In this document: positions 3,064-15,574 of the stretch, piece by piece | Position numbering within the stretch: position 1 is the stretch's first letter | How the letters are laid out: each line of letters begins with the position of its first letter | Assembly: GCF_013407765.1 (NCBI RefSeq) | Contig: NZ_JACBZD010000002.1 | Location: 196,001-260,000, forward strand | Reading direction: 5' to 3' | DNA from: Allostreptomyces psammosilenae | Lineage (GTDB): Bacteria; Actinomycetota; Actinomycetes; Streptomycetales; Streptomycetaceae | DNA length: 64,000 bases | Position numbers and translations under genes: made by a program | Notes under the pieces: generated by a model | Told to the model about the DNA's origin: nothing | Seen by the model: the letters and a program-made list of their open reading frames with translations, nothing else | The model's database searches: none

Positions 3064-4014
3064 TCACGGGGCCGGCACCTCGGGCTGCTCGGCGGGGTCG
3101 GACTGCTCGGTGAGGCCGGACTGCTCGGTGAGGCCGAGGAAGGCGTCGTCCAGGGTGGTGTCCACCACCCGCAGCTCCCTCGCGGTGATCCGGCTGCGGG
3201 CGAGCAGGGTGATCACGGCGTTCACCGTCTCGTCGGTGCCGTGGATGGTCAGGCGCCCGTCGCGCTCGGCCACGGACGTCGCACCGGGCAGCGCGGCCAG
3301 CTCCGCGTCGGGCAGGGGTTCGGAGGGCCGCAACGAGATCACCGTCGGGCTCGCCGAGCGGCTGATCAGGCCGTCCGGGGTGTCCAGCGCCACCACGCGG
3401 CCCCGGTCGATGACGGCGACCCGGTCGCACAGCCGCTGGGCCTCCGCCATGAAGTGGGTGACCAGGAGGATCGTCACCCCGGACGCCCGGATGTCCTCGA
3501 CCATCTCCCAGGTGTCGCGGCGTGCCCGCGGGTCGAGCGCGGTGGTCAGCTCGTCGAACACCACGATCCGCGGGTTCCCGATCAGCGCCAGGGCGATGAA
3601 CAGGCGCTGCTTCTGCCCACCGGACAGCTTGCCGAAGGGCTTCCCCAACAGCTCGCCGAGGCCGAGCCGGTCGGCGAGGGGCCGCCAGGCGGCCGGCTTC
3701 GGGTACAGGGCGGCGTACAGCTCCAGCGCCTCGCGGACGGTGAGCCTCGCCTGCAGCTCGCTCTCCTGCAACTGCACCCCGAGCAGCCGGGTCAGCTCGC
3801 GCCGGTCGCGTGCCGGGTCAAGCCCGGCCACCCGCACGGTTCCGGCGTCCGCTGTCCGCAGGCCCTCGACGCACTCGACGGTGGTGGTCTTCCCGGCGCC
3901 GTTGGGGCCGAGGATCCCGAAGATCTCCCCCTCCTCGACGGCGAAGGTCACGCCGTCGACGACGGCCTTCCCGCCGTAGGACTTCCGGAGCTCGTTGACT
4001 TCGACGATCGACAT
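3064..4014 (-). CDS. ABC exporter ATP-binding protein (DrrA-like)
   Basis: A 316-residue cytoplasmic ATPase of a DrrA/CcmA-type exporter. Walker A is GPNGAGKTT at residues 36-44, the signature is LSGGQKQRLF, Walker B is RIVVFDE and the switch His is in ILLVTHFMAEAQ. A C-terminal extension of about 90 residues, usual for drug-exporter ATPases, ends with a short imperfect repeat (GLTEQSGLTEQSDPAEQ). In Walker B the usual P of the D-loop is replaced (FDELTTALDPRARR), but the catalytic Glu is kept. First gene of the operon with the permease and the two-component pair; start at 4014 with a GAAGG ribosome site. Confidence 0.92.
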   Translation of the reverse strand: MSIVEVNELRKSYGGKAVVDGVTFAVEEGEIFGILGPNGAGKTTTVECVEGLRTADAGTVRVAGLDPARDRRELTRLLGVQLQESELQARLTVREALELYAALYPKPAAWRPLADRLGLGELLGKPFGKLSGGQKQRLFIALALIGNPRIVVFDELTTALDPRARRDTWEMVEDIRASGVTILLVTHFMAEAQRLCDRVAVIDRGRVVALDTPDGLISRSASPTVISLRPSEPLPDAELAALPGATSVAERDGRLTIHGTDETVNAVITLLARSRITARELRVVDTTLDDAFLGLTEQSGLTEQSDPAEQPEVPAP

Positions 4015-4192
4015 GCCTTCAGCCTGGCCGCGCAGCCCTCGGCCCGGTATCGGCCATCACGCTCGGACGGGCATCAGCCGATCGGCTGATGCCCGTCCAC
4101 CACCCGTCCATCGCCCGGCCCGCTCCGGCGGCTGGTCCGGCCGGGCCGGGGCCCCGTGGCCGCTCGCGCCGGTGCGGTGGCCGGCCGTGCCG

Positions 4193-4621
4193 TCACCGGA
4201 AGCGGGCGACGTAGCGGCGCTGCCACGGGGTCTCGACGGCGCGCCGGGCGTAGTTCCGCCGGACGTACTCCACCGCCTGGTCGTTCGGTACCCCGTCCAG
4301 CACGGCGAGGCAGGCCAGGGCCGTGCCGGTCCGGCCGAAGCCGCCGCCGCAGGCCACCTCGACGCGCTCGCCGCCGGCGCGCGTCCACGCCTCGCGCAGG
4401 GTCTCGGCGGCTGCCGCGCGGTCGCTGGGCAGCCAGAAGTCCGGCCAGCGCAGCCAGCGGCTCTCCCAGCCGACGGCGGGCGGTTCCTGGCCCAGCAGGT
4501 ACACGGCGAAGGTCGGCTCCGGCCCGTCCGGGAGCGGGTGGCGCAGCCCCCGCCCACGCACCAGCCGGCCCGATGGCAGTCGCAGCACGCCCCGCGCCGA
4601 GGGCTCCCAAATGGCGGTCAT
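4193..4621 (-). CDS. Protein-tyrosine-phosphatase-like protein
   Basis: A 142-residue small cytoplasmic protein. The segment EVACGGGFGRTGTALACLAV (Cys91 to Arg97) has the C-x5-R-T/S-G loop of the cysteine-dependent dual-specificity/tyrosine phosphatase fold, so it probably hydrolyses a phosphoester through a phospho-cysteine. The His that normally precedes the Cys (HC-x5-R) is Ala here, which may lower the activity. The N-terminus (WEPSARGVLRLPSGRLVRGR) is common to this actinobacterial group. I chose Met at 4621; the upstream extension to 4693 is Pro/Arg rich. The gene stands alone between two same-strand genes. Confidence 0.75.
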   Translation of the reverse strand: MTAIWEPSARGVLRLPSGRLVRGRGLRHPLPDGPEPTFAVYLLGQEPPAVGWESRWLRWPDFWLPSDRAAAAETLREAWTRAGGERVEVACGGGFGRTGTALACLAVLDGVPNDQAVEYVRRNYARRAVETPWQRRYVARFR

Positions 4622-4792
4622 GGGCGCGAGCCTAGCCACCGGGCGCGGCCCCGCCCATGGGCCGGAGCGCTCCGGGCGGGGCCGTTCGCCCACGGCTGAC
4701 CGGACCCCTGCGGGCGGTGGGTGGGCCGGCCGGCCGCGCGGTTCGGTCGCCGTCCCGCCGCGCGGTGGGTGGGCCTCCCGCGCGTGGTTCGG

Positions 4793-7783
4793 TCAGCCGT
4801 CGACCTCCGCGTCGGCCACGCCGGTGATCCGGTGCAGGGCGAAGGTGCGCACCGTGTCGCCCTGGTGGTCGTAGGCGGTGACGAAGCCGCCGGCGACCCG
4901 CAGCGGGGCGATCAGCCGGCGCCCCCCGCCGCCCTCGGTGTCCAGGTAGCCGATCCACACCTGCTCGCCGCCGAGCGCGGCCGCCTGGAGGGCCGCCAGC
5001 GTCTCGGCGGGCGTGCCGCGCGGCAGCTCCCCGGGCCGCAGCCGCGCCGCGCCGTTCCGGCTCCCGGCTCCGGCGCCGGAGCCCGCCCCGGAGCCGCCCA
5101 GGGCGGGGGCGGCGGCGCCGCGCTGCTGCGCCGACCCGCCCTCGCCGGCCCGGACGGCCCGCACCACGGCCCGCAGCAGCACCTCGTCCGGCGGCGCCGG
5201 GCTGTCCGGCACCGGCGCGGGCGGGGTGCGGGGCGGGGTGCGCCGGCGGTCCGGGCGGTTGATCACGACGTCCCCGGCGTCCGACTCGGCCGCCGGGGCG
5301 TAGCCCATCTCCCGCAACCGCTCCAGCACGACGTCCGGCGCGGCCGCCGCCGCCAGCACGGTCGGGGCCAGGCGGCGCAGGCCCAGGTGGAGGGCGCGGC
5401 GGTCCGTGACGATCTCGGCCAGCAGCGCCTCGTCGTCGCAGCGCAGGTAGGCCGAGGCGGCGCCGACGCGCAGCCGCCCGTGCCGGCGCGCCACGTCGTC
5501 GATCAGGTAGGCGAGCGGCTGCGGCAGCGGCGTGCGGGAGTGCTCGGCCAGGAAGTCGCGCAGCTCCGCCGCGGTGCGCCCGGCGTCCAGCGCGCGGCGC
5601 ACCGACTCGGGGGTGAAGCGGTAGACGGTGGCGCCGCCCTTGGACTCGATGTCCGCGGCCAGCGCCATCGCCGCCGCCAGGTCGCCGCGCAGCGGGCCGG
5701 GGGCGATGGCCGTCAGGTCCGCCTGGAGCAGCACGTGATCGAGCGGTTCGGGGAGCAGCGGGGCCAGCAGGCGGGCCGCGGTGGCCGCCCGCCGGACGGT
5801 GTCGGCCCGCTCGTGGGCGCCGGCCAGGTCGGCGATCCGGGCGACGGCCGCGTTCTCGGCCCCTTCGCCGCCCTCGGCCGCGTCCCCGGCCGCCGCCTCC
5901 GCCACCAGCCGGGACAGCTCGGCCAGCACAGTCGACTCGCCGGCGCCCTCGGCCTGCGGGCCTTCCGCCTGCGGGGCTTCCGCCTGCGGGGCTTCCGCCC
6001 GCGGGCTCCCCGGCCCGGGGCCGTCCGGCAGCAGCGCGCGGGCGAACGAGGAGAGGGCGCCGCGGCCGGTGACGCCCAGCCAGGCCGCCTCCCGCACCGT
6101 CCAGCGCACCAGGTCGTCGCGGAGGGTGCCGCGTCCCGCGCCGGTGGTGGCGGGGACGGCGCTGCCGTCGCGCTCGGTGGGCACCCCGGCGGGCGTCACG
6201 GTGCGGGCCCGGCTGGCCCGGAGCGGGCGGTACCAGCCGACCACCTCGACCAACTGCTCGGCGGTCAGTGCCGCACCGGGGCCGGCCTGGGCCAGCAGGC
6301 CGAGGGTGAGCGCCCGGATCTCCGGGGCGGGCCCCCGGTCCAGGCCGGGGCCGAGCACGCCGAGCACCCGCCCGCGCCCGTCCCGGCCGCCCACCGGCCC
6401 GCTGCTGCGGGTCGCGGACAGCCAGGGCGTCACCAGCGCCGTCCACCGCCGCTCGGCGGGCAGCGCCAGCCAGGCGTCGTAGGCGGGGGTGGGCGCGTAG
6501 CTCTCGTCGTCCTCGCCGTCCGAGGCCACCAGCCCGGCGGCGTAGGCGACCTCCAGCCAGAACGCCGCCTCCGCCTCGGTGAGGTCCAGCGCGGCGGCGG
6601 TGCGCCGCAGGTCGCGGACGCCGAGTCCGCCGGCGCGCAGCACGGGCGGGCCGGCCGACGTCCAGTCCTCCAGCAGTTCCTCCACCACGCGCAGGGCGGC
6701 GAACGCCTGCCCGGCCGCGGCGGCGTCCACCGTCGCCGGATCGTGCCGGGTGGGCGGTGGCGTGGGCGGGGCCGGGTGCAGCTCCCGGTGGGCCCGGCCG
6801 CCGCGCAGGTGCAGGCCGACCTCCCGGGGCAGCACCACGGAGCGGCGGCCGAACGGGATCAGCAGGGCGTGGGCCAGCAGCCACTCCACCGGCGTGCCGG
6901 CCTGCTCCGCCGAGACCGGGCGGGTGGCGTCCTGGACGCTGCCCAGCGGCGGACCCCACACCAGGCGGGCCAGCACCCGCATGGCGCCCTCCGGAGCCTG
7001 CGCGATCAGCGCGCCGAGCCGGTCGCGGTCCCGGAACAGGTCGGTGATGGCGGCCACGGCGCTGACCGGGTCCGGGGTGGGCGGCAGGCCCAGGTCCGCC
7101 AGCATCTGCTGGAGCCGCGCCGGCGACATCCCGGCGGTGCACTCGGCCAGCGTGGGGCCGAGACCGGTCGGCGAGGCGGCCAGGGCGGGCGCCGCCGCGG
7201 GCTGCCCGGAGGCCGTCGGGGTGCCGGGGGAGGAGGGCAGCGGCGGCGGGGCGAGCATGTCCCGGACGGTCCGGATCAGGTGCAGCGCGTCCGGCGGCCC
7301 CCACAGCAGGGCCTGCGCGCGCAGCCGGCCCAGGGCGTCGGCCAGCGGGGCGTCCAGCTCGGCGGCGGTGGGGGCGGGCACGGCGGCGGGGCCGGTCGGG
7401 GCGCCGCCGGTCGTGGTGCCGCCGGCCGTGCCGGTTGCGCCGCCGGGCGTGCCGCCGGCCCCCTCGGGTGGGACGGCGGGGCGGGAGCCGTCGCCCACCA
7501 GCAGGTGCAGCAGCGTCTCGTGCGAGGTGCCGTCCGGGGCGACGGCCAGCGCCTCGGCGACCTCCAGGGTGAAGCGGTCCAGGCGCTCCAGGGCGCGGAT
7601 CACGGAGGTGCGGGTGCTGGCGCGGGTGGCGAGCTGGGTGAGATCGGCGGGGATCGGCGAGAGCAGGTCCGGGCGCGCGCGGAGCACGGCGGCCAGGGCG
7701 TCGTCACCACGGGCGCGTAGGTCCTCGGCGAGGGTGCGCGGCGCCGGTCGCCGCAGGGGCTGCTCGGTTGGCCGGGTGGTCAT
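4793..7783 (-). CDS. XPB/Ssl2-like helicase C-terminal domain protein with WYL-like tail
   Basis: A 996-residue cytoplasmic protein of the actinobacterial 'helicase-associated / Helicase_C_3' group. The middle part (about 590-760) has the recognised block YRFTPESVRRALDAGRTAAE, then DFLAEHSRTPLPQPLAYLID and RVGAASAYLRCDDE, as in the domain related to the damage-recognition part of XPB/Ssl2. I see no Walker A or DEAD/DEAH motif, so it is probably not a helicase by itself. The last ~70 residues (EQVWIGYLDTEGGGGRRLIA, then FALHRITGV) look like a WYL ligand-binding domain, so it may be a nucleic-acid- or nucleotide-sensing protein. Low-complexity Ala/Gly/Pro linkers include a repeat around 5940-6000 (AEAPQAEAPQAEGPQAEG). 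The start MTTRPTEQ at 7783 is preferred; a longer frame exists to 8038 but crosses the promoter region. Confidence 0.8.
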   Translation of the reverse strand: MTTRPTEQPLRRPAPRTLAEDLRARGDDALAAVLRARPDLLSPIPADLTQLATRASTRTSVIRALERLDRFTLEVAEALAVAPDGTSHETLLHLLVGDGSRPAVPPEGAGGTPGGATGTAGGTTTGGAPTGPAAVPAPTAAELDAPLADALGRLRAQALLWGPPDALHLIRTVRDMLAPPPLPSSPGTPTASGQPAAAPALAASPTGLGPTLAECTAGMSPARLQQMLADLGLPPTPDPVSAVAAITDLFRDRDRLGALIAQAPEGAMRVLARLVWGPPLGSVQDATRPVSAEQAGTPVEWLLAHALLIPFGRRSVVLPREVGLHLRGGRAHRELHPAPPTPPPTRHDPATVDAAAAGQAFAALRVVEELLEDWTSAGPPVLRAGGLGVRDLRRTAAALDLTEAEAAFWLEVAYAAGLVASDGEDDESYAPTPAYDAWLALPAERRWTALVTPWLSATRSSGPVGGRDGRGRVLGVLGPGLDRGPAPEIRALTLGLLAQAGPGAALTAEQLVEVVGWYRPLRASRARTVTPAGVPTERDGSAVPATTGAGRGTLRDDLVRWTVREAAWLGVTGRGALSSFARALLPDGPGPGSPRAEAPQAEAPQAEGPQAEGAGESTVLAELSRLVAEAAAGDAAEGGEGAENAAVARIADLAGAHERADTVRRAATAARLLAPLLPEPLDHVLLQADLTAIAPGPLRGDLAAAMALAADIESKGGATVYRFTPESVRRALDAGRTAAELRDFLAEHSRTPLPQPLAYLIDDVARRHGRLRVGAASAYLRCDDEALLAEIVTDRRALHLGLRRLAPTVLAAAAAPDVVLERLREMGYAPAAESDAGDVVINRPDRRRTPPRTPPAPVPDSPAPPDEVLLRAVVRAVRAGEGGSAQQRGAAAPALGGSGAGSGAGAGSRNGAARLRPGELPRGTPAETLAALQAAALGGEQVWIGYLDTEGGGGRRLIAPLRVAGGFVTAYDHQGDTVRTFALHRITGVADAEVDG

Positions 7784-8018: not shown

Positions 8019-9227
8019 ATGAGCGTCGAGGGCGACAAGCTGGTCTACGACTACCTCAGCCGGGTCGCCGACCTGGCCCGTGGCGAGCTGCCGCCCGACC
8101 GCCGCATCCGGCTGGTGGCGCGGCTGCGCGAGGAGATCGACGGCGCCCTCGGGCCGACCCCCAGCACCGGCGCGGTCCGGCGGGTGCTCGGCCGCCTCGG
8201 CGAACCGGAGGCGGTGGTGCGCCGGGAGGCGACCGGGGGCGGGGGAGCGGGAGCGGCCGAGGGGTTCGACCCGGCGCCGCTTCGTCCACAGCCTGTGGAC
8301 AACGGTGGCGGTGGCGGAGGCGGCGAGCAGCCGTCGCCCCGCCGTAGGCCGGGCGGGCTCGGCGGGGCGCTGCGGCTGCCGCGCCAGTCGTCCGGGCCAC
8401 GCGAGCGCGGCGCGGACGACGCCGGGGCCGCTCCGGCGGAGCCCGCCGACGCCCCCCGGCTACCGGCCCAGGCCGGCGAGCCGTCCGCCGGACCGTCGCC
8501 GTCGTTGCCCTTCGGGGAGGCCGGGCCTGAACCGGGCGGTGGCGCGCGCTGGGACTCGGTCACCTGGGCGGAGGCGCTCAAGGCCGGCAAACTGGGCCCG
8601 ATCGTCCCGCAGACCGAACTCGACCCGACCCAGCCGGGCGAAGCGCGGCTGCTCCCCACCAGCATGCCGGGGGTCGTCGGCGGCCTGATCGTGCCCGCGG
8701 CGAACCCGGTGAAGGACGACGTTCCGGAGAAGCCCGGCGACCAGGGCACGCCGGCCGGCAAGGACGCGGCCGACCAGGCCAAGGACGGCGCCCCCGCCGG
8801 ACGCCGGCCCGGACCCGGCCGCCGACTCGCCCGCGCCGTCTTCGGCGCGGGCCGCCGAGGGGGCGGGGCCTCCGGCGAAGCGGCCGGGCCGCGCCGGCTG
8901 TTCCTCACCGAGTGGCTCGCGGTCGGCCTGCTGGTCGCCGGTGCCGTCTGGCCGGCCGTCGTGCTGAGCTTCGGCGGCTGGGTGCTGGCGTACCTGTCCA
9001 CGTCGCTGCGCGTCTGGGAGGCGCGGGCGGCGTCGATCGGCGTCCCACTGCTCACGGTGGGCGGAGCGGCGGCCCTGTACTGGGCCCGCACCACGGGCCG
9101 CCTGGGCGAGGTCTACACCGAAGCCCAGGCCGACGCCTACGTGCAGGCGGCCATGAGCACAGTGCCGCGCGTAGCCGCCGTCCTCTCGGCGATCTTCCTC
9201 CTCTGGCGGATCACCCGCGGCCGTTGA
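8019..9227 (+). CDS. Conserved streptomycete membrane protein with long disordered linker
   Basis: 402 residues. The N-terminal ~75 residues (DYLSRVADLARGELPPDRRI, then GRLGEPEAVV) form a helical domain like the ones at the start of many actinobacterial DUF1700/HAAS-type proteins. A disordered Gly/Pro-rich region of ~220 residues follows, and three hydrophobic segments close the protein (WLAVGLLVAGAVWPAVVL, IGVPLLTVGGAAALY, VPRVAAVLSAIFLLWRI). The role is not known; an HAAS-like domain suggests contact with a cytoplasmic partner. ATG 8019 is preferred (GGAG 6 bases upstream); GTG 8007 is also possible. The 3' end overlaps the convergent radical-SAM-like gene by 17 bp. Confidence 0.78.
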   Translation: MSVEGDKLVYDYLSRVADLARGELPPDRRIRLVARLREEIDGALGPTPSTGAVRRVLGRLGEPEAVVRREATGGGGAGAAEGFDPAPLRPQPVDNGGGGGGGEQPSPRRRPGGLGGALRLPRQSSGPRERGADDAGAAPAEPADAPRLPAQAGEPSAGPSPSLPFGEAGPEPGGGARWDSVTWAEALKAGKLGPIVPQTELDPTQPGEARLLPTSMPGVVGGLIVPAANPVKDDVPEKPGDQGTPAGKDAADQAKDGAPAGRRPGPGRRLARAVFGAGRRGGGASGEAAGPRRLFLTEWLAVGLLVAGAVWPAVVLSFGGWVLAYLSTSLRVWEARAASIGVPLLTVGGAAALYWARTTGRLGEVYTEAQADAYVQAAMSTVPRVAAVLSAIFLLWRITRGR

Positions 9228-10068
9228 GAGTGGGGGAGCAACGTTGTTCCCTTGGTGCGCAGGTGCCGGGATCGGTCGGCGGGCAGTCGTGGGTGGCGGC
9301 TGCTGGGCAGTGGCGGCCTGGTAGGAAGTGCGGGACGTCGGCGCGCAGTTTCTCCCACCGCGGGCCGCCGATGATGTGCCCCAGGGGTTCCTGGAGGATG
9401 TTGCCGAGCGGTGTCGTTCGTGTGCTGGGGCAGCCGACCACGCTGCCGTCGGACAGCACGAGGGCTCGGCGGTCGGCGCACCGTCCGCACGGGTCCGCTG
9501 GCGGTGAGGTGTGGTGGGGCATTCGGATCGTGGTGATCTCCCGGACTCCGAGAGAGCGTAGTTCTGCCGCCGCGTTGTCCACACGCTGTGCTGAGTGGCA
9601 CTGGAGGACGCGAACGCGGATCCGTACGCCTTTCAGGAAAGCGGCGGCCACGTTCAGGCGTACACGGGCGTATGCGCCGGTGTCGCCCACGATGGCGTCG
9701 TGCTCCTCGGGAAGATCGCTGTAGTAGGGGGCTACGAGCGTCACGCCCGGGTGGCGGAAGAGGTCCCACAGCTCGCTGCGGATCGGCATGGCCAGTCCGG
9801 TTTCGACGATGGTCCTGCGGCGTGTGTGGATCGCGTGTCGTAGCAGGGACTGGAATGCGGGGTGTGCCATGGGTTCACCGCCGACGAACCGTAGTCGGGG
9901 GATGCCGATCACGGCGGCCTGTTCGATGACGGTCTTCCAGGAGCTGGGGGTCATGCCCGAGATGGTTCTCGGCGGAACTCGGGCGCAGCGCTGACGCTGG
10001 AGCGGGCAGTGTCCGGCGATCTCCAGGTCGAGTAGATCGAGAGGGGGTGCCGTGGTGCTGTGGGGCAC
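9211..10068 (-). CDS. Radical-SAM/SPASM-like protein, cluster motif damaged
   Basis: 285 residues, GTG start. The frame has the layout of small actinobacterial radical-SAM/SPASM proteins: a cluster-binding loop near residue 20, the GGEP motif (RFVGGEPMAHPAF) at about 60, and a Cys-rich C-terminus (CGRCADRRALVLSDGSVVGC, then further Cys to the end) that would hold auxiliary clusters. The loop should read C-x3-C-x2-C but reads C21-PLQ-R25-QR-C28. The middle Cys is Arg (CGT, plus strand 9994-9996), one transition from TGT, and the usual aromatic after the third Cys is Ala. Without that Cys the SAM cluster cannot form in the known way, so this is either a recent pseudo-enzyme or has a new role. 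It is the last gene of a three-gene minus-strand group with 10151-10630 and 10627-10836. Confidence 0.75.
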   Translation of the reverse strand: MPHSTTAPPLDLLDLEIAGHCPLQRQRCARVPPRTISGMTPSSWKTVIEQAAVIGIPRLRFVGGEPMAHPAFQSLLRHAIHTRRRTIVETGLAMPIRSELWDLFRHPGVTLVAPYYSDLPEEHDAIVGDTGAYARVRLNVAAAFLKGVRIRVRVLQCHSAQRVDNAAAELRSLGVREITTIRMPHHTSPPADPCGRCADRRALVLSDGSVVGCPSTRTTPLGNILQEPLGHIIGGPRWEKLRADVPHFLPGRHCPAAATHDCPPTDPGTCAPREQRCSPTLNGRG

Positions 10069-10150: not shown

Positions 10151-10630
10151 TCAGGGGGCGGCGGACTGGGCCGCGTCCACCATGGGGCAGTGGCCTGCCA
10201 GCAGCAGGCGGTGCCGCGCGGCGTCCGCGAGCAGCCGTTCGACGTCGTCTCGGTCTCGCAGCGTGCCGGTCACGGGGGCGGTGACGATGGCGAGGGTGGC
10301 GCCGCCGCGGTTCCGTGCTGCCCGGGTCCAACCGCGCGGGACTTCGGGGGTCATGGCGCGTTCCTCCGGGCCCGGTCCGTGGTCGAGGGCGAGAGTGCCG
10401 TTGGGGGTCAACCAGCAGCGCGGCCACGTGCTCAGCAGCACGCTCCGGGCTGGGTGGAGGCCGAGGACGACGGCGAGCGTCTCCATGCGGCCGTGGACCC
10501 GCCCAGCCGGGGTGAGGGTGTCCCTGCTGATCAGGGTGAGCATGGGGATGCGGGGGTCCCTGGGGCCGCGTAGGTAGGGGAGGGCCTGGACCTGCCACCA
10601 CAGGTGCGGTGGGGCCAGCGTGGCGGTCAT
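10151..10630 (-). CDS. Hypothetical protein of regulator-linked cluster
   Basis: 159 residues, not recognised. No membrane segment, signal peptide or known motif is visible; it starts MTATLAPPHLWWQVQALPYL and has a Pro/Arg-rich middle. Its ATG overlaps the stop of the zinc-ribbon gene upstream (ATGA at 10627-10630), so the two are translationally coupled, and the radical-SAM-like gene follows after 82 bp. Coupling to a zinc-ribbon protein divergent from an XRE regulator suggests that it is part of the same accessory module. A longer start at 10669 is possible but would overlap the upstream gene further. Confidence 0.65.
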   Translation of the reverse strand: MTATLAPPHLWWQVQALPYLRGPRDPRIPMLTLISRDTLTPAGRVHGRMETLAVVLGLHPARSVLLSTWPRCWLTPNGTLALDHGPGPEERAMTPEVPRGWTRAARNRGGATLAIVTAPVTGTLRDRDDVERLLADAARHRLLLAGHCPMVDAAQSAAP

Positions 10631-10836
10631 GAGGGATCTCCGCAGCCCGAGCAGAACCGCACCTTCCACCGGTTACCGAACATGTCGTGGACGGCGGTCG
10701 GGCGAGTCCGAACGTCTACCTGCCCGCAGCAGTTCACGCATACCGCCCCGGTCCTCTCCGGGACGGTCAGTGCCCGGGCAATGGTGGGCGGTAAAGGGGG
10801 CACGCGGCCCGATTCCTGCTCGGGCGTGAGGGTCAT
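10627..10836 (-). CDS. Small zinc-ribbon protein with FGNxWKVRxC motif
   Basis: 69 residues. Two Cys pairs, C-x2-C in AVCVNCCGQVD and C-x2-C in VRFCSGCGD, flank the conserved segment MFGNRWKVRF, so it very probably binds one zinc as a ribbon. No DNA- or RNA-binding activity can be shown from sequence. The start at 10836 is set by a perfect AAGGAGG about 6 bases upstream; the frame is open to 10923 but lacks a ribosome site there. It is divergent from the XRE regulator at 10996, with a shared 159-bp promoter region, and coupled by ATGA to 10151-10630. A related protein with FGNSWKVRACLDC stands at 41325-41573, again divergent from an XRE regulator. Confidence 0.8.
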   Translation of the reverse strand: MTLTPEQESGRVPPLPPTIARALTVPERTGAVCVNCCGQVDVRTRPTAVHDMFGNRWKVRFCSGCGDPS

Positions 10837-10995
10837 GAAGCCTCCTTGGCTGTGAGTGACCACCACATTGCCCAGAGAGAGAGGCGTCGCACGATGACAA
10901 TCCGTGTGCCACTTGCCCGTCACACCCTGACATTCCGGTCCACTGACGGCATCTCAGCTATACGCTGTGCATGCTTGATGCGACAGGGGGTGAAA

Positions 10996-12306
10996 GTGAA
11001 CGCCTCGCGCAACATCGTCTTGGCCGGGCTGATGGCTCAGCACGGCCTGAGTGCCGCCCAACTCGCGCAGGAGGTCAACCAGAAGGCTTTTGAGCTGTAC
11101 CAGGGCCATGTTGGTACCACGGAGCGACACGTGCGCCGCTGGTTGTCCGGCCAGGTGCGCTGGCCTCAACGGCGCTACCGGGAAGCTCTGACGGTCCTGT
11201 TCGAACGCCCAGCGAGCGAACTCGGCTTCACTGCTCCCGCGACGAGGAGATCTTCCAGCGCGGCGGACTCCGGGGTTACCGTGCCGGTACTCCCAGTTGC
11301 CCCTGCCCAGAGAGAGCAGCCCGTGCTCCGCCGAGAGTTCCTGGTCACGTCCAGTGCCGCCCTCGCCATCCCCCCGCTCCCGACCACAGGGCGCCTCGGC
11401 ATGCCCGACATCGAGCGCATCCGCAGCACCGCCGCACAACTGCATGCCCTTGATGACCAACTCGGGGGCGCCGTCGTCGTTGAAGCCGGACGCGATCTCT
11501 TCGAGCACGTCGAGGGTGCGATGCGCCGATGCGTTTACGGTTCCACGGTGCAACCGCATCTCCACCGCGTCCTCGGGGAGATCGCCGCCAGCGTGGGCTG
11601 GTTCGCCTACGACGCCGGCCACCACGCCACCGCACGACGCTGGTGGGACACCGGACTCCGCCACGCGCTCCTTGCGCGCCATCCCCTTCTCCAGGCACGC
11701 ATCTGGGCCTACATGTCGCGCCAAGCCTGCGACCTCGGGCACGGCGCGGAGGCCGCTGCCATCGCACGAGTAGCGATCGACGTAACCCGCCGCCATCGAG
11801 ATGGCAAGTTGTCCGCGCTTCTGCACACCCGGATCGCTCTGGCCAATGCCGTCCAAGGCCACAGCGGGTGGAGCAACCGCGCGCTTCACCACGCCGAGCA
11901 GGCATTCGATCGAGCTGCCGATACCCCGCCGCCGTGGCTCGCCTTCTGCACCCCGGCGGAACTACTGGCACAGGCCGCCCTGTGCAGCTCCACACTCGGT
12001 GACTACGCCCGCGCGGCTCAACTCCGACAACACGAGGATGCCCAGCCGCGCCAGAGGTTCCGTCGGAACGCCTTCGGGCACACGACCCATCTCGCGCAGT
12101 GCCTCCTGCACTCGGGACAAGCCGAGCAGGCCTTCGCCACTGCCGACCAGGCACGCGAGATGCTGCCTCACGTCCACTCCCCGCGATGGGCCAACCGGCT
12201 TGCCGCGTTCCGGGACGAAGCAGTCGAGCGGCGCTTGCCAGGCGCCGACGACTTCGCCGAGCAGTACGACCTCACAGTGGCCGCGATCGAAAGGGCACGG
12301 ACATGA
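10996..12306 (+). CDS. XRE-family regulator with TPR-like domain
   Basis: 436 residues. The N-terminal ~75 residues hold an HTH of XRE type (IVLAGLMAQHGLSAAQLAQE, then TTERHVRRWLSGQVRWPQRR), followed by a linker and a helical TPR-like region (about 150-430) as in many streptomycete signalling regulators. An internal segment RREFLVTSSAALAIPPL looks like a Tat signal but stands mid-protein, a known oddity of this family. I chose GTG 10996 because AGGGGG lies 5 bases upstream; ATG 10978 and GTG 10990 are in frame. A TATACG box at 10959-10964 may be its -10. It is coupled to the GNAT gene by ATGA and divergent from the zinc-ribbon gene, which is the likely target. Confidence 0.87.
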   Translation: MNASRNIVLAGLMAQHGLSAAQLAQEVNQKAFELYQGHVGTTERHVRRWLSGQVRWPQRRYREALTVLFERPASELGFTAPATRRSSSAADSGVTVPVLPVAPAQREQPVLRREFLVTSSAALAIPPLPTTGRLGMPDIERIRSTAAQLHALDDQLGGAVVVEAGRDLFEHVEGAMRRCVYGSTVQPHLHRVLGEIAASVGWFAYDAGHHATARRWWDTGLRHALLARHPLLQARIWAYMSRQACDLGHGAEAAAIARVAIDVTRRHRDGKLSALLHTRIALANAVQGHSGWSNRALHHAEQAFDRAADTPPPWLAFCTPAELLAQAALCSSTLGDYARAAQLRQHEDAQPRQRFRRNAFGHTTHLAQCLLHSGQAEQAFATADQAREMLPHVHSPRWANRLAAFRDEAVERRLPGADDFAEQYDLTVAAIERART

Positions 12307-12866
12307 GCCGAACCTTGGCCGTCAGTCTGTACACCAAGGGGCAGTTCGAGAGCATACGAGTCACGCTCGTGGATACCTATGCCGAGGTTTACGCCCGCGA
12401 AGCCGCCTCGGACCTGTTCTTCTCACTGGAGCGCTTCGAGGAGCGGCTCATCAGCCACGCATCGGCGCCCGGGTGGCGCTGCGCCATCGGTGAGGTCGAT
12501 GGCGAAACCGTCGGCTACGCCTACGGTGCGCCGCTCGCGGCGAGTACCCGGTGGTGGCGAGGTCTCACCACCCCTGTCGACGACGAACTGATCCGCGAAG
12601 ACGGCCGCCGGACACTAGGCCTGTTCGAGATCATGCTGCGCACGCCATGGCGAGGCCAGGGAATAGCCCACACCATCCACAACGAACTCGTGGAGAGCGG
12701 CCCTGAGGAACGGGTCTCCCTCTGCGTCGAACGCGCTCACCCCCGCGTGCGCGTCCTGTACGAAAGCTGGGGGTACCGGCAGATCGGGGAACTGCTCCCG
12801 TTTCCTGACGCACCACTGTACGACGCCATGATCCTTGATCGCCGCCCGCTCCCTTTCCGCCAGTAA
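12303..12866 (+). CDS. GNAT-family N-acetyltransferase
   Basis: 187 residues with the GNAT fold: substrate-side strands near WRCAIGEVDGETVGYAYGAP, the acetyl-CoA loop LRTPWRGQGIAHTIHNELV (R-x-x-G-x-G/A type), and a C-terminal LYESWGYRQIGE that is the usual last strand-turn. It would transfer an acetyl group from acetyl-CoA to an amine; the acceptor is not known. The ATG overlaps the stop of the XRE gene (ATGA at 12303-12306), so both are made from one transcript. This could be the effector of the regulator, or a self-protection or tailoring enzyme of the island. Confidence 0.87.
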   Translation: MSRTLAVSLYTKGQFESIRVTLVDTYAEVYAREAASDLFFSLERFEERLISHASAPGWRCAIGEVDGETVGYAYGAPLAASTRWWRGLTTPVDDELIREDGRRTLGLFEIMLRTPWRGQGIAHTIHNELVESGPEERVSLCVERAHPRVRVLYESWGYRQIGELLPFPDAPLYDAMILDRRPLPFRQ

Positions 12867-12933: not shown

Positions 12934-14148
12934 ATGGCCGACACGGACCGAGAGAGCACCCTGTGGACGCTACGCAAAGCCCGCGGCTGGACCCAGCAGG
13001 ATCTGGTCGACCAGTTCCAAGAGACCGCGGCCCGGCTCGGTCGCCCCATTGGCATCAGCCTCCGAACGGTCTCCCGCTGGGAGTCGGGCAATCCTCCGTG
13101 GCCCAACGTGGAGGCACAGCGGGTGCTGGAGAAGTTGTTCTGCCTCCCCATCAGCCAGTTGGGATTCGTCGCGACTGGGGACACTGTCTCCCCGTCCGTC
13201 CCGGCCAAAGCGGAGCAGTCCGATGTCGGCCCCGCCACCATGGACTCGCTGCACCAAGCGGTTGATCAGCTATGCCGCGAATACCCATCCGCCGCCTCAG
13301 ACACTCTGCACCAGCAGGCCCGTGGCTGGTTGAACTACACCACCCGGCTGCTCCATGGGCGCACAACTCTCGCCGAGCACCGCGAACTCCTCGTCATCGT
13401 CGGGTGGTTGTTCTTGCTGTGCGGGTGCCTGGAGCACGACATGGGACAGCGCCGCACGGCCGAGTTGTCCCGTGCCGCGGCAGCACGGATCGGCGCCGAG
13501 ACCGGGCATGGGGAGATCACCGCCTGGTCCTGGGAGATGGCGGCCTGGTTCGCACTGACCCAGGAGCGGTACGGCGACGCGCTTGCGGCGGCCCAGGCGG
13601 GGCGGCGCCCTGCGAGCGGCCATTCGGTCGCCGTCCAACTCCTGGCCCAGGAGGCGAAAGCCCACGCACGGATGGGCTCGCCCATCGACGTGCGGAAAGC
13701 ACTGGACCACGGTCGCGGCCTGCTGGACCGCCTGCCACGGCCAGCACACCCGGAGCACCATTTCGTGATTGACCCGGACAAGTGGGATTTCTACGAGATG
13801 GACGCCTACCGCCTTCTGGGAGACGACGCCCGCGCCGGCGCGCACGCGGCCGAGGTGATCCGGCTCGGTACCCGCGCGGATGGCACCACCCGATCCCCGA
13901 TGCGGGTAGCCGAGGCGCGTCTCACGCTCGGCGTCGGGTCAGCACGCTCTGGAGAACTGGAGGAGGCCGTCGACAACGGGATGGCGGCCTTCGAACCCGC
14001 GCGGAAGTCACTGCCGTCGCTGCTGCTGGTCGGCAGCGAGTTGGATGCGGAGCTGCAAGCGCGGTATCCGCGCGAGGTGGCCACTCGGGATTATCGGGAG
14101 CACCTGCGGGCCCTCGCCACTGTCGCGCGCCGCGCACTGGAGGCGTGA
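12934..14148 (+). CDS. XRE-family regulator with TPR-like domain
   Basis: 404 residues. The HTH is at the very N-terminus (LWTLRKARGWTQQDLVDQFQ, ISLRTVSRWESGNPPWPN), followed by a linker from residue 85 and a long helical TPR-like region. The start ATG has CTAGGAGGCAGCC upstream. It is the second such regulator in 3 kb and lies 67 bp after the GNAT gene, probably in the same transcript. It stands directly upstream of the small peptide/methyltransferase pair (146 bp gap), so it is the best candidate for its control. Confidence 0.88.
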   Translation: MADTDRESTLWTLRKARGWTQQDLVDQFQETAARLGRPIGISLRTVSRWESGNPPWPNVEAQRVLEKLFCLPISQLGFVATGDTVSPSVPAKAEQSDVGPATMDSLHQAVDQLCREYPSAASDTLHQQARGWLNYTTRLLHGRTTLAEHRELLVIVGWLFLLCGCLEHDMGQRRTAELSRAAAARIGAETGHGEITAWSWEMAAWFALTQERYGDALAAAQAGRRPASGHSVAVQLLAQEAKAHARMGSPIDVRKALDHGRGLLDRLPRPAHPEHHFVIDPDKWDFYEMDAYRLLGDDARAGAHAAEVIRLGTRADGTTRSPMRVAEARLTLGVGSARSGELEEAVDNGMAAFEPARKSLPSLLLVGSELDAELQARYPREVATRDYREHLRALATVARRALEA

Positions 14149-14294
14149 GGCGCGGCTGATCGCCCCGCAGCCGGCCACCGCCGAACGGGTGACACCGCGC
14201 CCGGCGTGCGCCGGGGGCGCGCCACCGTGCCCGCTCCCCGCCCCACCCCGGGCCCAGCCAGGATGATCGCCACCCACCCGACAAGGAGGCCATC

Positions 14295-14459
14295 ATGGGC
14301 AAGCACGGCGACGGCAAGGGCGGCTCGGCCGGCGACGGCAAGCAGGGCCCTCAGGAATCCGACGGCCAGTGGCCGCCCGCCCACCCCCCGCACGGCGGTG
14401 GCGGCGGCAGCGGCGGCAACTCCGGGCAGGGCTCCGGCAGCGGAAGCGGCGGCCAGTGA
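14295..14459 (+). CDS. Candidate RiPP precursor peptide, Gly-rich with three Asp-Gly sites
   Basis: 54 residues, with a strong AAGGAGG ribosome site 6 bases upstream. The peptide starts MGKHGDGKGGSAGDGKQG, then a short SDGQWPPAHPPHG part and a Gly/Ser tail to Q54. Asp-Gly occurs three times (D6-G7, D14-G15, D23-G24); there is no Cys and no Thr. The stop overlaps the GTG start of the methyltransferase (GTGA at 14456-14459), so the two genes are translationally coupled. Asp-Gly is the classic site for aspartimide formation by methylation of Asp. In the known imiditide RiPPs a PIMT homologue acts on Asp of a small precursor with no other enzyme. That this peptide is the substrate is inference; it might instead be a non-modified partner. 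Confidence 0.72.
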   Translation: MGKHGDGKGGSAGDGKQGPQESDGQWPPAHPPHGGGGGSGGNSGQGSGSGSGGQ

Positions 14460-15574
14460 CGCCCGACGACCTGGCGCCCGATTGGCGCAAGGCGTGGTCG
14501 GCGGTGGATCGGGCCCAGTTCATCCCGCCGGTCATCTGGGCGACCACCCCCGACGGCTACCGGCGGATCGACCGGGCCGACGAGCCCGACGTCTGGGAAG
14601 CCGCCGTCGACCAGGACCAGCCGCTCGTCACCCAGCTCGATGACGGCGCCGAGGACGGACCCGGCACGCCGACCAGTTCGGCCAGCATGCCGTCGCTGGT
14701 GGCGCGGATGCTCGATGTTCTGTCCGTGCGGGACGGTCACCGGGTGCTGGAGATCGGCACGGCGACCGGCTACAGCGCCGCGTTGCTGTCCGAGCGGCTC
14801 GGCGACGACCACGTCACCACCATCGAGGTGGACCCCGTCCTGGCCGAGGCCGGGCGCCTCGCGCTGCACGCCGCGGGTTACCACCCCACGGTCGTCACCG
14901 GTGACGGAACGGCCGGCCACCCGCCGTCCGCGCCGTTCGACCGGATCATCAGCACCGCCGCCGTTCGCCGTGTGCCCCCGGCCTGGCTGGAACAGTGCCG
15001 CCCGAACGGAGTCATCGTCACCCCGTGGGGCACCGCCTACAACAACAGCGGCCTGCTCCGTCTGGAGACGGACTGGGCCGGCGGTGCGAGCGGTTGGTTC
15101 GTAGACAACGTGGCGTTCATGTGGGTTCGCGGCCAGCGCCGCGCCACCCACGGCCGGCGCCTGTTCGGCGACCTGGTCCGCGACGAACACGAGCAGCAGG
15201 CCGAGCACTCCACCACCGGGGTGCACCCCGGCGAGGTCGGCGCCGAGCACCCGGACTTCGCCATCGGCCTCCAGCTTCCCGACGTCGACCGGCGAGTGTA
15301 CTGGGGCAGTGGGGACGCGGCCGACGAGTACACCGTGTGGTACCTCGCCGAGGACGGCGAGTCCTGGGCGAGTGTGGACTACGCCCCCGGCATGACGGAG
15401 TTCCCGGTGGCGCAGTGGGGCCGGCGCCGCCTGTACGACGAGGTGACGGCGGCCTACCGGGTCTGGATCGACTGGGGGCGCCCGTGGCGCGAGCAGTTCG
15501 GCCTGGCGGTCACGCCCACTGGGCGGCAGCGGGTGTGGCTGTCAGACCCCGACAATCTGGTCGCCGAGGTCTGA
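14456..15574 (+). CDS. PIMT-like O-methyltransferase with C-terminal extension (aspartyl methyltransferase)
   Basis: 372 residues. The N-terminal ~220 residues match protein-L-isoaspartate O-methyltransferase: SAM motif I VLEIGTATGYSAALLSERL at 98-116, and DRIISTAAVRRVPPAWLEQC, then VIVTPWG. A C-terminal part of ~150 residues (GAEHPDFAIGLQLPDVDRRV, then DYAPGMTEF and WRRRLYDEV-like sequence) is absent from house-keeping PIMT (about 210 residues) and is known from the RiPP-associated homologues that methylate unmodified Asp and give aspartimide. The GTG start overlaps the stop of the peptide gene. No ATP-grasp or lanthipeptide synthetase gene is nearby, so it would be a stand-alone modifying enzyme. 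Confidence 0.88.
   Translation: MTPDDLAPDWRKAWSAVDRAQFIPPVIWATTPDGYRRIDRADEPDVWEAAVDQDQPLVTQLDDGAEDGPGTPTSSASMPSLVARMLDVLSVRDGHRVLEIGTATGYSAALLSERLGDDHVTTIEVDPVLAEAGRLALHAAGYHPTVVTGDGTAGHPPSAPFDRIISTAAVRRVPPAWLEQCRPNGVIVTPWGTAYNNSGLLRLETDWAGGASGWFVDNVAFMWVRGQRRATHGRRLFGDLVRDEHEQQAEHSTTGVHPGEVGAEHPDFAIGLQLPDVDRRVYWGSGDAADEYTVWYLAEDGESWASVDYAPGMTEFPVAQWGRRRLYDEVTAAYRVWIDWGRPWREQFGLAVTPTGRQRVWLSDPDNLVAEV

Follow-up and report, generated by a model that had tools for sequence, protein, structure and literature searches.

A precursor-methyltransferase gene pair of Allostreptomyces psammosilenae, very probably of the imiditide/type I pamtide class, and its relatives in chromosomes and phages

The imiditides, or type I pamtides, were described as a class in 2023, and approximately 1,400 of their loci have been published; the biological function is known for no member (PMC13001092). 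Type I pamtides have a two-gene organization, and their precursors are ca. 45 aa long, rich in Gly, Pro, and Asp, and contain a conserved Asp near Pro or Gly (PMC10787088). They are modified as linear peptides (PMC13001092). In SpaA and NmaA, basic C-terminal residues of the precursor and an acidic loop of the enzyme mediate recognition (PMC10787088, PMC13001092); such basic residues are reported for most precursors, not all (PMC10787088).

The gene pair analyzed here lies in a 64-kb stretch of the A. psammosilenae genome (contig NZ_JACBZD010000002.1, positions 196,001 to 260,000; hereafter “the window”). Judged from its sequence, it is very probably a member of this known class. Its features, numbered from the first nucleotide of the window, are as follows.

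14295–14459, + strand: precursor peptide gene of the imiditide/type I pamtide type, 54 aa, MGKHGDGKGGSAGDGKQGPQESDGQWPPAHPPHGGGGGSGGNSGQGSGSGSGGQ
14283–14289, + strand: Shine-Dalgarno sequence AAGGAGG of the precursor gene, read directly, five bases 5' of the ATG
14304–14372, + strand: conserved core H4–W26 of the precursor, compared across 26 homologues, HGDGKGGSAGDGKQGPQESDGQW
14361–14363, + strand: codon of Asp23, the predicted modified residue, in an invariant Asp-Gly pair (alignment A1, 16 precursors)
14373–14456, + strand: atypical 28-aa precursor tail without Lys or Arg, compared with 25 relatives, PPAHPPHGGGGGSGGNSGQGSGSGSGGQ
14456–15574, + strand: PIMT-like methyltransferase (PAMT), 372 aa (PF01135, TIGR04188, AlphaFold2 model, tree)
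14750–14770, + strand: SAM motif I, EIGTATG, with Ala103 where the relatives have Gly; the sole variant among 61 homologues
15128–15571, + strand: methyltransferase segment (structure model matched to 1DL5 over 368 columns)
15464–15484, + strand: WXXXGXP motif in the form WIDWGRP (motif described in PMC13001092)

The locus shares with NmaA-NmaM (Nonomuraea maritima) and SpaA-SpaM (Streptomyces sparsogenes) the same two-gene unit, with a short Gly/Pro/Asp-rich precursor directly beside a PIMT homologue and a highly conserved Asp near Gly/Pro. As in NmaM/SpaM-type enzymes, the PIMT homologue (372 aa; the class feature is more than 300) carries the RiPP C-terminal domain and WXXXGXP, and no other maturase is present; the neighbor search found, in the window unit, none of the maturases that define other RiPP classes. 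A linear substrate would be expected, as in the NmaA and SpaA systems. Three differences are noted: the tail is neutral (Gly/Ser/Pro/His) instead of bearing basic C-terminal residues, the residue after Asp is Gly where NmaA has His, and the SAM motif, unlike that of NmaM/SpaM, reads GTATG. A literature search with the precursor core gave only an unrelated string match; the supplementary list of 1,183 precursors (PMC10787088) lay outside that search.

More distant systems were also compared. Cysimiditides, or type II pamtides (FcaA, TceA, NalA), likewise consist of a stand-alone precursor and PAMT, but carry two CXXCXGXG zinc motifs; the window peptide has no such motif and no Cys. The group 13 graspetides with a PIMT (fuscimiditide, amycolimiditide, SsfA) have a methyltransferase homologous to the window enzyme, but are marked by an ATP-grasp ligase gene and a Thr/Ser-acid core, whereas the window pair has no ATP-grasp gene nearby and no Thr in the precursor. 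A role as the auxiliary enzyme of a graspetide, lanthipeptide, or lasso peptide was thus ruled out (a partner maturase is missing, as are Thr and Cys). The PIMT of Thermotoga maritima (1DL5) has the C-terminal extension in common with the window enzyme at about 19% identity; it is a repair enzyme and is not known to adjoin a precursor gene.

The first-pass annotation had described a 54-codon gene with a perfect AAGGAGG site, three Asp-Gly pairs (Asp6, Asp14, and Asp23), and neither Cys nor Thr, and direct reading of the sequence bears this out. The peptide contains 22 Gly, 5 Pro, and 3 Asp among its 54 residues. Just one other instance of the AAGGAGG-plus-ATG arrangement was found in the window. 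The GTGA overlap noted in that annotation was located at 14456–14459, where the TGA stop of the precursor gene overlaps the GTG start of the methyltransferase gene. No match to a structured RNA in Rfam was obtained at the locus, and no sigma-70-type promoter or terminator was found around the pair.

The methyltransferase is a PIMT homologue (PF01135, E 1.1e-25); against TIGR04188 it scored 319.9 bits, under the cut-off of 380 for that family. The C-terminal extension of RiPP-type homologues that the annotation had recognized is present as a domain of ca. 150 residues, modeled confidently by AlphaFold2 (mean pLDDT 94.2), and the best solved structural match of the predicted model over the whole chain was 1DL5. 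In the tree, the branch length of the window copy was 0.43–0.48, which is not unusually long.

Conservation of the pair was examined in a family sample of 395 genomes, and PAMT was detected at E ≤ 1e-60 in 162 of them. The window genome is the only one of its genus. A profile of 16 precursors located the precursor family in 39/395 genomes, of which the weakest matches may be chance. In all 30 precursor loci retrieved from the 395 family genomes, the methyltransferase lies immediately downstream. A leave-one-out profile (17 relatives, window peptide excluded) retrieved the window peptide at E 2.6e-11, as the sole good match in the 6.6-Mb genome. Relatives of the window enzyme have recognizable precursors just upstream, e.g. 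MGKHGDGKGGSSGDKGQSPKESDGQWSKPIPPAPSK, and in a sister clade (loci L010–L014) the two genes abut or overlap, approaching the overlap architecture of the window. Among 395 genomes sampled across the class, the precursor type was confined to the same family. From these sequence comparisons, the pair is real and conserved. In one of the sampled cases (L079/L108), a frameshifted PAMT gene, probably a pseudogene, adjoins an intact-looking precursor.

The core consensus of the precursor family is HGDGKGGxxGDKKQSPKESDGQW. Over these 23 residues, the mean pN was 0.135 and the mean pS 0.458 (pN/pS 0.30, 26 homologues), and pN was below pS in 323 of 325 precursor pairs; on these substitution counts, the core is under purifying selection. 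The precursor as a chance ORF was ruled out by this ratio and by the leave-one-out E value. Mean identity was 0.81 for the core versus 0.49 for the enzyme, and 0.80 for the core where enzyme identity was under 50%, figures that are inflated for the core by the partial use of the core profile in picking core-type precursors. That a peptide 80% identical is kept beside enzymes at 40% identity suggests a conserved target of the core.

The earlier annotation had proposed all three Asp residues as candidate sites. Asp6, Asp14, and Asp23 are each invariant among 26 close relatives. Asp14, however, precedes Lys, Gln, or Arg in almost every one of these, and Asp6 is absent in distant relatives; Asp23-Gly24 is the only Asp-Gly pair that is invariant among the 16 aligned precursors, including the distant ones without Asp6. 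Asp23 is therefore the best-supported site and the likely target, ahead of the less supported Asp6 and Asp14. The pair is thus conserved with Asp-Gly kept at this position, which the annotation had named as the check on its reading.

By analogy with the published class, the following course of events is proposed. Translation of the two genes would be coupled. With the linear precursor held by the C-terminal domain of the enzyme, its catalytic domain would methylate Asp23 of the ESDGQW motif at the side chain. The amide of Gly24 would then attack the methyl ester spontaneously, giving an aspartimide that would hydrolyze mainly to isoaspartate. That Asp (and not only isoAsp) would serve as substrate, that aspartimide would form, and that a product would exist are points that we infer from the published class. 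A conserved intracellular or regulatory target is favored over a fast-evolving secreted antibiotic, because the core is more conserved than the enzyme, HTH regulators are frequent near such pairs, and the genes seen beside the window pair include no dedicated transporter or protease.

Three further precursor-PAMT pairs, with three other precursor types, are present in the window genome (L002/L089, C1:4597774; L003/L090, C2:422203; L004/L091, C2:530908). A fifth PAMT-like gene (L090:8322–9494) is found 1.2 kb 3' of one of them, beside a DUF5753 regulator gene and with no obvious precursor. Separately, the same genome has an FxLD lanthipeptide-type locus (L092:5969–8047, C1 near 2225007), whose 693-aa product joins an FxLD-system methyltransferase to a thiopeptide-type bacteriocin domain.

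PAMT is also encoded by five isolated Streptomyces phages of Austintatiousvirus. In the four phages read in detail, i.e. PapayaSalad (L109:4780–6119), Alderaan (L110), Ididsumtinwong (L111), and Austintatious (L112), a precursor of 47–48 aa adjoins it in every case (PapayaSalad: MSGKHGGGSGSGSGGSQQDDSSSGRQHGGGGSETSGGNSSDGSGPSKK). The phage annotations list only a hypothetical protein (with a longer frame in 2/4 phages) and a methyltransferase. The pair is situated between a repressor, integrase, or tRNA gene and the holin/endolysin genes, i.e. between lysogeny and lysis genes; Alderaan is predicted to be temperate, with an integrase seemingly lost (PMC7650747). For the phage precursors, pN was 0–0.037 versus a pS of 0.03–0.15, with few changes, and pN was below pS in both phage genes. 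Two viral contigs have comparable pairs.

L114, 5932–7107: KHGGGG-type precursor and PAMT, flanked by serine integrase and endolysin genes
L115 (IMG/VR 3300043764_000039), 3452–4852: window-type core GKHGDGKGGSSGDKNGSPKTNDGQW and PAMT, with an NsdA-family regulator beside it, as in the window

Some IMG/VR contigs may carry host flanks, a doubt that does not apply to the Austintatiousvirus isolates. On two further viral contigs (L125 and L153), type II pamtide-like precursors with the Cys motif adjoin PAMT. Viral enzymes occur in several bacterial clades of the tree; the precursor type tracks the enzyme clade, and the two genes thus appear to move together. NsdA-family regulators, present beside the window pair, also occur in phages. 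The literature search found no mention of phage-borne RiPP PIMTs or of phage pairs. These observations raise the speculative and rather doubtful possibility that a mobile two-gene imiditide module is common to Streptomycetaceae chromosomes and temperate actinophages, kept beside the lysogeny-lysis switch of the phage for an intracellular role of the modified peptide in phage-host interaction or lysogeny, with the window pair as a chromosomal member. Residence of the window pair in an intact prophage was rejected, as no structural phage genes were apparent among the ORFs called in window 0–30 kb, which were judged by eye and of which some were searched.

The window copy itself has two peculiarities. 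Its tail after Trp26 is the only one among 26 core-type precursors without Lys or Arg (the tails of the 25 relatives are 4–17 aa long and have 2–5 Lys/Arg each), and its GTATG, in place of GTGTG, is unique among 61 enzymes. Basic C-terminal residues, which the window precursor lacks, are common in the class, not class-defining. The first-pass annotation had suggested that the peptide might represent a new subfamily; its first 26 residues fall within a known and fairly large precursor family, and the Gly/Ser/Pro/His tail alone is peculiar to this copy. The copy has either another recognition mode or reduced activity, and the Ala103 substitution means that it may be weak or decaying. The strongest form of the latter idea is a once-active imiditide unit rendered inactive, or nearly so, by neutral expansion of the Gly/Ser tail and by G103A. 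Both peculiarities would fit it, as does the need for basic C-terminal residues in SpaA and NmaA (PMC10787088, PMC13001092). Simple decay is argued against by the intact reading frames and GTGA coupling and by the ordinary branch length; in addition, the Shine-Dalgarno sequence is perfect, conservation of the core is complete, the structure model is confident, and type B precursors are likewise nearly devoid of a basic tail. Moreover, catechol O-methyltransferases lack the Gly in question and are active. Decay is accordingly considered improbable, and the class assignment above is retained.

The neighboring genes bear on whether the pair is part of something larger.

12934–14148, + strand: NsdA-family HTH/TPR regulator, directly upstream (NF053720, 125.9 bits, cut-off 75; phrog_10886)
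12303–12866, + strand: GNAT acetyltransferase (PF00583, 25.7 bits)
10846–12306, + strand: second NsdA-family regulator (NF053720, 274.1 bits)
9211–10068, - strand: degenerate radical-SAM-like gene ca. 4 kb away, with a partial CX3CX2C motif (second Cys replaced by Arg)

Of the two XRE regulators and the GNAT that the annotation had placed upstream, the GNAT stands, and the regulators are instead of the NsdA-family TPR type. Its statement that no ATP-grasp, LanB/LanM, or radical-SAM gene is in the same transcript agrees with the neighbor search. That the pair is part of a larger RiPP cluster in which the primary modification is a different one, e.g. by the radical-SAM-like gene, is very unlikely. 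In favor are the proximity of this gene, with its partial motif, and the presence of a radical-SAM gene in 249 published PAMT clusters (PMC10787088). Against it, the gene belongs to another operon on the other strand and lacks the second Cys of its motif; Radical_SAM is not a recurrent neighbor (1/47 upstream genes of 17 loci and 0/37 of 15 more); and Trp26 is the only aromatic target in a core that is devoid of Cys and Thr. Two small genes on the minus strand (10151–10669 and 10627–10923) accompany the radical-SAM-like gene, divergent from the NsdA-family regulator. The GC content from 9.5 to 13.8 kb is ca. 66–74%, mostly below 70%, versus a window mean of 74.6%, which suggests from composition that this region is an acquired island.

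Regulators of the XRE-DUF5753 type (SCO1979 family), in many cases together with DUF6879, are found upstream in about one third of 32 related loci. Because the window genome has ca. 17 DUF5753 genes per 6.6 Mb, this enrichment near the pairs is large, part of it reflecting shared descent. The arrangement with XRE-DUF5753, mostly accompanied by DUF6879, 5' of the precursor was observed at L040–L042, L051–L053, L055, L097, L100, L102, and L103. In one closely related clade (L095, L096, L098, L099, and L106), an AcrB/MMPL-type RND transporter gene is directly 5' of the pair.

Least probable of all, and strongly disfavored, is that a repair-type PIMT follows a low-complexity ORF by chance and does not use the peptide as substrate: the catalytic domain is that of a PIMT (PF01135) and GC-rich DNA commonly holds Gly/Ser-rich ORFs, but the pair is conserved under the selection and profile score given above, Asp-Gly is invariant, precursor type and enzyme clade appear to be transferred jointly, and the C-terminal domain is of the RiPP type.

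The locus is placed in a well-defined precursor subfamily, whose strictly conserved 23-residue core implies a conserved target, and the window copy, with its uncharged tail, offers a test case from nature for the charge-recognition model. The new element is the link of the imiditide class to temperate phages. If the mobile-module reading is true, possible roles would include superinfection exclusion, lysogen fitness, and host signaling, and the presence of such pairs on isolated Streptomyces venezuelae phages makes the question of function directly testable.
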